Source of the DNA: Halosolutus amylolyticus
GTDB taxonomy: Archaea > Halobacteriota > Halobacteria > Halobacteriales > Natrialbaceae
Assembly: GCF_023566055.1 (NCBI RefSeq)
Contig: NZ_JALIQP010000007.1
Span: forward strand, 124,001-188,000
Direction: 5' to 3'
Length of the DNA: 64,000 nt
Shown: piece by piece, positions 10,908 through 43,614 of the stretch
Layout: each line of letters starts with the position of its first letter
Numbering within the stretch: position 1 is the stretch's first letter
The notes under the pieces: model-generated
The model's database searches: none
Seen by the model: the letters and a program-made list of their open reading frames with translations, nothing else
What the model was told of the DNA's origin: nothing
Made by a program: the position numbers and the translations under genes

Positions 10908-10972
10908 CCAGAACGCGACGCGTTCTGGTGTGCGAACGAGACGCGAGGCGTCTCGTTAACGCCAGAAGGCGT
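10908..10972. repeat. Three tandem perfect hairpins
   Basis: Hairpin 1 is CCAGAACGCG-a-CGCGTTCTGG (10908-10928). After the 6-base spacer TGTGCG comes hairpin 2, AACGAGACGC-gag-GCGTCTCGTT (10935-10957), and then ACGCC-agaa-GGCGT (10959-10972). They sit between the broken gene and the ATG at 11007. The doublet with a 6-base spacer beginning TG resembles the one inserted in tnpA at 41781-41824. Confidence 0.7.
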
Positions 10973-41392: not shown

Positions 41393-41532
41393 CATCCGAT
41401 AACCTAGATATCACGATTGAGCACTTAAAGACTGAAGTTGTGGTGGGAAGTCTAACGCTTTAGCGAAATCTACAGGCAGAGCAGGCCGAGTGCCTCGGTG
41501 CTTGACCCCGAGGGTGAAGGCCGTAAGCCCCG

Positions 41533-41985
41533 CTAAACGTGTTTCGTTCGCTCGATATATTGCTCAATCGTGTCGGTCGAAACGTCGCCTGCCGTCCCCC
41601 CATAGTACGATTCCTCCCAAAACCCACCACCCCACAGATACTCCGCCAAGAACGGTTCGTGTTGTTCCCACATCTCCCGTGCCGTGATACTCTTGACCGT
41701 TCGTACAATCTCGCTCGGCGCGTTCTTCGGATGGGCTGACAGGAACAGGTGTACGTGGTCGGGCGAAATGTGGAGTCGTTCGAGAGACGAAGTCTCTCGT
41801 GATCACGAAAATCTCTGATTTTCGGACGACAACAGTATCTCGTAGCCGTACTCGTCGCACACGTCGCGGAAACTCACTTCCAGCGAGGCCTCGATTGGTT
41901 CGAGAATCGCGTGGCGGTATTTCGGACACCACACGAAGTGGTAGTTGACGTTGTACACCGTGTGGTTCGACCGCTTCTCACCCAT
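41533..41985 (-). pseudogene. tnpA: IS200-type tnpA interrupted by an inserted hairpin doublet
   Basis: The HUH transposase reads MGEKRSNHTVYNVNYHFVWC to EYGYEIL, then passes through ~54 foreign bases encoding SSENQRFS, a TGA and SRETSSLER, and resumes in the same frame with LHISPDHVHLFLSAHPKNAP (the HUH motif region) to IEQYIERTKHV. Without the insert it would be a normal ~132-residue TnpA. The insert is the pair of hairpins at 41781-41824. The element can therefore no longer move by itself. Confidence 0.88.
41781..41824. repeat. Hairpin doublet inserted in tnpA
   Basis: CGAGAGAC-gaa-GTCTCTCG (41781-41799), spacer TGATCA, CGAAAATC-tct-GATTTTCG (41806-41824). Both are perfect 8-bp stems with 3-base loops, and GTCGT/ACGAC flanks the whole unit as an outer inverted repeat. 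It is absent from the expected TnpA sequence, so it was inserted or created there. Confidence 0.8.
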
Positions 41986-42038
41986 ATTGGAGGCACGTGA
42001 CCGACACAGCTAAGTATATCCAAAGGATATACACCAGT

Positions 42039-42194
42039 ATGGCGAACCGCTTTGAAATCGAGGGCGAAGAAGTTCTCGACGGCGAGGTCAAACCGTTCGG
42101 GAACAGCGCCCACGTCACCGTCCCCAAACGCTGGCGTGGCGCAGACGTGAAAGTCGTCCGCATCTCAGAACCCACCGAACAAGACGAAGAATGA
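42039..42194 (+). CDS. DUF2080 transposase-associated protein
   Basis: A 51-residue protein from the ATG at 42039, MANRFEIEGEEVLDGEVKPF, then GNSAHVTVPKRWRGADVKVV. This is the DUF2080 family of small AbrB-like DNA-binding proteins found almost only upstream of tnpB in archaeal IS605 elements. Its stop overlaps the tnpB start (ATGA at 42191). It may regulate transposase expression or bind the element ends. Confidence 0.9.
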   Translation: MANRFEIEGEEVLDGEVKPFGNSAHVTVPKRWRGADVKVVRISEPTEQDEE

Positions 42195-43429
42195 CCGACG
42201 CACAGGCTCTCGTCAAGACGCTGGACTTCCAACTCAACATCCAGAGCGACAACGAGAGCCTGCTGTACGACGCCACCCTCGAAGCTCGCTCGGTGTACAA
42301 CGAAACCATCCGCCTCGCCAAGCAAGGCGTGGACTGGGACACGATTCCCGACCGCGTGGCTGACGACGCCAACCTCGTGAAGAATACAACTCAGCGCGTC
42401 GTCGCCAAGGCTCTCGGCGCGATGGAGAACTACTACGAGTACGACGACTTCGGCCAACCCAGTCACACCAAGGACGGCGCGTACCCGCTTCGTGCGAACT
42501 ACGAGGAAGGGTACAACCTGTCACTCACCGACGACGGCGACGTTGCGTTCCGCATCAGCGCGAAGCCGTACAAACACGTCAAGGGTGTTCTCAAAGGGAG
42601 TGACGCTCACCTCGACATTCTTAAGACTGCGCTCACGAGCGACGAGTGGAAGATTGGGACGGCAGAGGTCCTGTTCCAAGACGACACCGCCGAGTTACAC
42701 GTCAACGTCACTAACACCGAGCAGACTGTTCGAGACAAGCAGGATTCACGGACGGTCGTTGGTGTGGACGTGAACGAGGATAACGTGGCTCTCACCGCAC
42801 TCTCCAAGGATGGCGTCGAGGACACGCTCGTTATCGACTTTCCCGAAATCAAGTTCGAGCGTCACCGCTACTTCACGATGCGAAAGCGCGTGCAGAACGC
42901 GGGGAAAGACAGCATCCACGACACGCTGGAAGGACGTGAGGAACGGTTTGTCCGCGACCGACTCCACAAGGTGTCTCGGCACATCGTGGAGTGGAGTCAG
43001 CGGTTCGAGAAGCCGTGCATTGTCTTTGAAGACCTCAAAGAGATGCGCGACAGTATCGACTACGGCACGCGGATGAACCGACGCTTGCACCACCTCCCGT
43101 TCCGCGCTCTTCAGTTCTATACGTCGTACAAGGCGTCGTTCGAGGGGATTCCGACTGGATGGATTGACCCCGAGTACACCAGCCAGCGGTGTCCGATGTG
43201 CGGACACACAGAGCGTGCGAACCGAAACAAGAAGCGGTTCAAGTGCAAGGACTGTTCGCATCAAGACCACAGCGACCGTGGTGCAAGCGTCAACATTGCC
43301 GTGAAAGGCATCAAGAAGCATCAAGATTGGAATGTGTCTGCTCTCAACAGCCTTCCCGTTGTTCGGAAGGTGCGACGGCAGGCATCGGGGGCCGTGGACG
43401 CCCCGACCGTGACCCACAACGCCATTTGA
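42191..43429 (+). CDS. tnpB: TnpB, RNA-guided endonuclease of the IS605-type element
   Basis: A 412-residue protein. RuvC residues: D193 in GVDVNEDN, E280 in IVFEDLKEM and D362 in HSDRGASVNIA. The zinc finger is C334/C337 and C352/C355 (CPMCGH...CKDCS). It belongs to a different TnpB branch from the one at 9392. The C-terminal third is nearly the same as the remnant at 12141-12493. The coding region and the downstream right end appear intact, so it may still act on the locus matching its guide (from 43509) even though tnpA is dead. Confidence 0.93.
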   Translation: MTDAQALVKTLDFQLNIQSDNESLLYDATLEARSVYNETIRLAKQGVDWDTIPDRVADDANLVKNTTQRVVAKALGAMENYYEYDDFGQPSHTKDGAYPLRANYEEGYNLSLTDDGDVAFRISAKPYKHVKGVLKGSDAHLDILKTALTSDEWKIGTAEVLFQDDTAELHVNVTNTEQTVRDKQDSRTVVGVDVNEDNVALTALSKDGVEDTLVIDFPEIKFERHRYFTMRKRVQNAGKDSIHDTLEGREERFVRDRLHKVSRHIVEWSQRFEKPCIVFEDLKEMRDSIDYGTRMNRRLHHLPFRALQFYTSYKASFEGIPTGWIDPEYTSQRCPMCGHTERANRNKKRFKCKDCSHQDHSDRGASVNIAVKGIKKHQDWNVSALNSLPVVRKVRRQASGAVDAPTVTHNAI

Positions 43430-43479
43430 GGCTATCAGGCCGATGGTCGAATGGGAGTGTCCGACTAATCCACGGGAAG

Positions 43480-43508
43480 CCTCGGGGCTTGACCCCGAGG
43501 CGGTTCAC
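43480..43508 (+). ncRNA. Right-end hairpin / 3' end of the reRNA of the IS605 element
   Basis: CCTCGGGG-cttga-CCCCGAGG followed by CGGTTCAC at the border. By analogy with known reRNAs the guide would start at 43509 (TTGCCGGCATCA...). Confidence 0.6.
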
Positions 43509-43614
43509 TTGCCGGCATCATATTACCCCTTAGAAGAGACAAAACCCGGAGATATAGGTGGTGAAAACCAGTTACTATGATGCTTAGATAGATGTTCTAC
43601 TCTCACAGCACATA

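Follow-up and report, generated by a model that had tools for sequence, protein, structure and literature searches.

In the window (the whole stretch of 64,000 nucleotides that was analysed), an insertion sequence (IS) of the IS200/IS605 type has its DUF2080 gene and tnpB divergent from tnpA, and its tnpA is interrupted by a small double hairpin (Table 1). The gene encodes the Y1 HUH transposase domain that is required of IS200/IS605 elements (PF01797). The insert splits the gene between GYEIL(S) and LHISPDHVHLF, directly upstream of the HUH motif (HISPDHVHLF), and in an alignment to solved Y1 transposases (2xm3, ISDra2 TnpA) it corresponds to an 18-residue gap within EVIT/MEVMPDHVHLL. The TGA that it brings is the sole premature stop in tnpA; the frame is then open to the normal end, with no other lesion. 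An AlphaFold model of the read-through TnpA was set aside (mean pLDDT of 51). The genome has three Y1 genes, one of which holds the element, and the two others are intact and without stops. The 3' end of tnpB (43332-43526) has a sub-threshold Rfam match to the sotRNA sot2652 (37.4 bits versus a gathering score of 61), and the host IS probably has its guide RNA region here.

Table 1. Features of the double-hairpin insert and of its host insertion sequence, in positions of the window.
Feature	Position	Strand	Basis or remark
tnpA of IS200/IS605 host element, Y1_Tnp PF01797	41533-41985	-	Pfam E-value 2.9e-32, 111.8 bits, read through the TGA
Inserted element	41776-41829	+	alignment with empty tnpA and matched family copies
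Left outer repeat GTCGTT, first G is target DNA	41775-41780	+	GTCGTY conserved in family
Hairpin 1, CGAGAGAC-GAA-GTCTCTCG, perfect 8-bp stem, loop GAA	41781-41799	+	
Palindromic spacer TGATCA	41800-41805	+	near-invariant in family; stop codon on tnpA strand
In-frame TGA of tnpA, from spacer	41803-41805	-	open reading frame ends here; GGA or CGA in 8/23 relatives
Hairpin 2, CGAAAATC-TCT-GATTTTCG, perfect 8-bp stem, loop TCT	41806-41824	+	
Right outer repeat GACGAC, last C is target DNA	41825-41830	+	RACGAC conserved in family
DUF2080 transposon-associated protein of host IS	41997-42194	+	PF09853; GTG start as listed, true start may be internal
tnpB of host IS	42191-43429	+	PF07282
Host-IS end palindrome CCTCGGGGTCAAG/CACCGAGG, junction 41500/41501	41493-41513	-	comparison with occupied copies of that context
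Palindrome at opposite host-IS end, CCTCGGGGTCAAG/CCCCGAGG	43480-43500	-	comparison with occupied copies

The earlier note had described two perfect 8-bp stems with 3-base loops, joined by TGATCA and surrounded by GTCGT/ACGAC, exactly as they lie at 41781-41824, and had placed them in frame between GYEIL and LHISPDHVHLF with a TGA, which the alignment with empty relatives bears out. Its 44-base unit covers the hairpins and is too short: alignment against empty tnpA relatives and family members defines an insert of 54 nt (TCGTT...GGACGA), situated between G41775 and C41830. Each hairpin 19-mer occurs at a single place in the window (chance expectation of 0.03-0.05 matches at up to three mismatches), and a scan for doublets (two stems of at least 7 bp, 3-10 nt apart) found two in the window and none in any of ten shuffles. 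The 56-mer composed of the element and its flanking G and C, taken as single-stranded DNA, has a folding energy of -15.2 kcal/mol (z = -3.0; 0 of 200 shuffles as good), and the folded strand is a three-way structure closed by GTCGT/ACGAC. A second doublet in the window, at 10908-10957, is of another family (CCAGAACGC-GAC-GCGTTCTGG, TGTGCG, AACGAGACGC-GAG-GCGTCTCGTT, with outer GGCGT/AACGCC), and its spacer TGTGCG recurs at three other loci (L264, L091, and L101).

Two further copies of the element lie elsewhere in the source genome (C5:29780-29839 and C1:279189-279251), with different stems and the same frame. A family pattern that fixes only GTCGTNCG, CGTGATCACG, and CGNACGAC was searched in 84,980 species genomes (GTDB) and matches at least 120 stretches; among those listed, all but a handful are from Halobacteria, and in the few non-halobacterial matches the stems do not pair. 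As far as found, the mobile family is restricted to Halobacteria. Its constant frame is GTCGTY..CG-TGATCA-CG..RACGAC, in copies of 54-66 bp with stems of 7-11 bp that start with CG, a 3-nt loop, and a TGA tail; the pattern searches favour intact copies, the end G and C were built into the first pattern and GTCGTY/RACGAC was required, and a few copies without one terminal G or C are present (L014, L036, and L037). The strict form occurs in 55 of the 391 genomes of the class and the left hairpin in 164, many of which carry a large sister subfamily whose spacer is TGATGA and whose right end is CGAACCAC. A search with the left half and free 3' sequence yielded this TGATGA subfamily and no longer, autonomous version. 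In the open-access literature, we found no description of this family.

Several side observations concern the same 391 genomes and individual copies. Additional variants differ in their second hairpin, and at some loci three or more hairpins are strung together (e.g. L091, L096, and L309). On a plasmid of Halovenus salina (L048, 1501-1562), an annotated tnpB runs with its 3' end into a copy, so that the gene as annotated stops inside the element. Many copies are found in genome G007, where two lie within 300 bp (C23:262312-262644), and in Haloarcula rara (NZ_CP119785.1; L055, L065, L067, L091, and L108), which suggests local bursts of the element.

The stems themselves vary freely. The two arms have 24 and 32 distinct sequences, and 97 per cent of stem pairs are standard, compared to 85 per cent when 3' arms are shuffled among copies. 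Identical stems bear either orientation of the loop (TTC/GAA, TCC/GGA, and AAA/TTT); for the CGAAAATC stem, the loops are TTC in 18 cases and GAA in 15, and TCC in 18 and GGA in 6. Because stem sequence is free while pairing is kept, and because loops occur in both orientations, we infer that the hairpins are probably maintained by template switching, in which one arm would be repeatedly recopied from the other. Template switching between inverted repeats has two products, arms that become homogenized and spacers that become inverted (PMC8604942).

The clearest test of mobility comes from a host repeat whose empty form, of 61 nt, was predicted by joining flanks and then sought in genomes. This repeat, probably an IS605/PATE-like end, is intact in many genomes (100 per cent in G153, G363, and G080), is occupied after base 13 in L310, L313, and L320-L322, and is occupied after base 38 in L304; the latter site is also taken by the TGATGA/TCATCA subfamily (L303 and L308). 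The two insertion sites lie 25 bp apart, and in the occupied repeats the left G and the right C are kept, with no target base duplicated, lost, or changed. Exact pairs of empty and occupied alleles at several sites show that the element inserts between G and C without target duplication. It has been mobile over evolutionary time. Both end palindromes of the host IS in the window lack the element at a site where other genomes carry it.

The earlier note had proposed a tiny mobile palindromic unit, to be checked by searching the genome and its relatives for the 44-base unit, for the empty tnpA, and for a common spacer and outer repeat. Copies and empty tnpA genes were both found, many copies share the spacer and the outer repeat, and several points have exact empty sites, in agreement with the proposal. 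The lack of any other copy, named there as refuting, is contradicted by the copies that exist, and local templated mutation at GTCGT cannot account for one frame that recurs at dozens of unrelated loci.

The copies are located in coding, intergenic, and IS sites of many contexts, several of which are IS605 ends or tnpA. For 13 of 111 copies, a gene for a query-like TnpA or TnpB is found no more than 600 bp away, compared to 1.2 per cent of control positions; because this is true of only 13, many targets are not proven IS elements. Insertion into hairpin loops was rejected as a general rule (19 per cent of sites are in predicted loops versus a background of 22 per cent) and holds mainly for the palindrome at the end of tnpB. 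Some copies lie in that palindrome, where the sotRNA or guide RNA is located, and pairing is kept under sequence change; both would be expected of a structured RNA or regulatory hairpin that is retained for a function at the RNA level (for instance in transcription termination, in RNA processing, or as a piece of the TnpB guide RNA) and whose spread is incidental. We regard this explanation as very unlikely, given the clean and recurrent insertion, the many site contexts, the two loop orientations, and the Rfam results, in which 17 loci had no family at gathering score except a tRNA and the sub-threshold sotRNA match was found at the tnpB end only.

The insert is present in 23 of 75 tnpA homologues, always at the same nucleotide. 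In a tree built from the flanking codons, 16 changes between presence and absence are required, of which at least 10 are forced by well-supported branches, and near-identical tnpA genes are distinguished by hardly anything other than the insert (L177 versus L199 and L202; L189 versus L206 and L207). This tree rejects one ancestral insertion into tnpA that was never lost or exchanged. Haloarchaea recombine often, and the tnpA flanks are highly conserved, hence short conversion tracts would be traceless; this conservation would also let IS copies that recombine pass on the presence or absence of the insert in tnpA, and such recombination can explain part of the pattern. Gene conversion from one old insertion, with no active movement, is nevertheless an unlikely account of the whole, since the family has filled at least two other sites for which exact empty counterparts exist, two subfamilies share one site (L304 versus L303 and L308), and the loops differ among the tnpA copies.

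Three other in-frame hairpin inserts occur in tnpA genes of the class, of 45 nt at VWC/PKYRH, 51 nt at CPK/YRH, and 54 nt at AHPK/HAPSE, so that all four kinds (45, 51, 54, and 54 nt) are multiples of three (chance of 1/81). The doublet families of 45 nt (L216, L220, L225, and L232) and 51 nt (L219, L223, L224, L227, L020, L186, L187, and L193) are situated in the N-terminal part of tnpA. The TGA of the insert studied here is lost in 8 of the 23 tnpA copies (GGA in seven, CGA in one), whereas outside tnpA 2 of 77 copies show a change at that base (Fisher P-value = 9e-5, or 0.001 with sister pairs merged and 0.02 in the strict-pattern set; relatedness is not fully corrected). The 51-nt insert has a similar trend, with TAG changed to CAG in three of eight, and the second insert of L189 is of the TGATGA subfamily in its stop-free orientation. 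In Haloferax larsenii, a copy with the stop-free insert is annotated as an ordinary transposase of 150 residues. The claim of the earlier note that the insert has no coding meaning holds for the copy in the window only and fails in several relatives, where the insert is an open reading frame. The dN/dS ratio was discarded as proof of function after insertion, as it is 0.09 with and without the insert, and the insertions are too recent and scattered to inform.

Inactivation of IS605-type transposons by such elements, as a host defence tool, has been proposed for the SMR-A repeats discussed below (PMC3119063), and in the window a TnpA is truncated. The in-frame lengths and the repeated stop loss point instead to tolerance by the IS rather than to maintained inactivation, and we consider a defensive role highly improbable. 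Nor do we think it likely that haloarchaea have a scarless, site-specific system of single-strand recombination by which double hairpins enter and leave G/C junctions, with the stop-bearing insert acting as a reversible off-switch of the IS200/IS605 transposase that is answered by stop loss, the insert then being kept as protein sequence.

Among known systems, miniature inverted-repeat transposable elements (MITEs) have inverted repeats that match a genomic transposon and usually a target duplication, and the latter is absent here. Rickettsia palindromic elements (RPEs) are bacterial palindromic DNA found in frame in coding genes, of which RPE-1 is longer. In-frame coding insertion is common to RPEs and the tnpA inserts, a likeness by description and not by sequence; the present element differs as a double hairpin whose coding host is a transposase. 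The double-hairpin elements of fungal and other mitochondria are also very short and mobile, again likened by description only, and belong to another domain of life with another replication system. In the REPIN/RAYT system, a cognate RAYT transposase is flanked by the repeats; the source genome has its three Y1 genes, one of them holding the element.

Bacterial REP dimers (REPINs) and CGTC-tagged REPs (PMC3116915, PMC3733652) resemble the element as inverted dimers of short tagged hairpins that also lie within genes, with the tags outside (here GTCGTY), and no dedicated transposase is known for the CGTC class either (PMC3733652). The tag stands outside each hairpin, as in head-to-head CGTC-REP dimers, and reads CGTC or CGTT in the element, whose hairpins are arranged tail to tail around TGATCA. 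CGTC REPs have stems of 8-9 bp that start with AT, loops of 4-5 nt, and a CCA tail; the element, which is archaeal, has instead stems of 7-11 bp with a CG start, 3-nt loops, and a TGA tail. The description 'REP-like' in the earlier note is apt for the inverted dimer of tagged hairpins and the lack of target duplication, and inapt for the loop, stem start, and tail of described REPs.

The small mobile repeats SMR-A and SMR-B of Haloquadratum walsbyi, whose mobilization was called enigmatic by Dyall-Smith et al. (2011, PMC3119063), are characterized there as haloarchaeal, with terminal inverted repeats, which in SMR-A are unrelated to known transposons, no target duplication, and no transposase, and are often situated within the near-terminal palindromes of IS605-type elements. 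Exact empty and occupied pairs demonstrate the lack of target duplication for our element as well. Terminal inverted repeats (GTCGTY/RACGAC) are present in the copies found, although the search pattern asks for them, and the preference of SMR-A for IS605-type or PATE palindromes may have a counterpart in the several IS605 ends and tnpA genes that are occupied and in the 13 of 111 copies near tnpA or tnpB. SMR-A is approximately 110 bp and SMR-B down to 80 bp long, with more than 95 per cent identity within a type (PMC3119063); the element has neither this length (54-66 bp) nor this identity; its stems vary freely, and it is spread over the class. In-frame tnpA insertion with stop loss is not described for SMRs in the main-text sections covered (PMC3119063). 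The same source describes the 52-bp, terminal-only HqIRS46 of Haloquadratum, a core-deleted PATE with a size and two-hairpin layout like those of the element (PMC3119063). By analogy, the element could be a deletion derivative of an IS605-type element in which left-end and right-end hairpins are fused, which seems improbable given that the search with the left half revealed no full-length element with these ends and that the frame is an almost perfect inverted repeat, unlike IS605 ends. We judge that the element shares the main behaviour of SMRs and of REP dimers/REPINs, lacks defining features of each, and is a non-autonomous hairpin dimer.

Overall, we consider it fairly probable that the insert represents a haloarchaeal mobile element, a non-autonomous hairpin dimer that inserts cleanly between G and C, has template-switched arms, is likely moved by a Y1 transposase, and truncates TnpA, in some relatives later becoming stop-free. 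The element would comprise two stem-loops, each capped by CG, that stand tail to tail on either side of TGATCA, with the tags GTCGTY/RACGAC outside, and one DNA strand would therefore fold into the three-way structure. Its insertion leaves neither duplication nor loss of target bases at the G/C site and is often in IS200/IS605-type elements and their terminal palindromes, as the empty and occupied pairs show; an IS200/IS605-like Y1 (HUH) transposase acting in trans would most likely move this folded strand. The earlier note had pointed to relatives of IS200-like TnpA as movers of such hairpins. Movement by Y1 in trans is plausible in that the element is built of hairpins, leaves no target duplication, and is associated with IS605-type elements, although no transposase was linked to the element in this analysis. 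Y1 transposases normally recognize specific hairpin features, which counts against this step, since the stems of the element vary freely; the free stems argue for recognition by tags, spacer, and shape instead of stem sequence. Within tnpA, the 54-nt length would keep the frame and the TGA of the spacer would truncate TnpA upstream of its catalytic residues, until one base change, as in several host copies, turned the insert into an addition of 18 residues.

A mobile element of 54 bases is very small, and for this one exact empty and occupied sites can be demonstrated. The tnpA copies also show that a hairpin insert within a transposase has repeatedly been turned into protein-coding sequence. 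In 2011, the movement of transposase-free archaeal repeats was called enigmatic (PMC3119063); the fixed sites, exact empty alleles, and readable frame of this family make the question of movement open to direct test.
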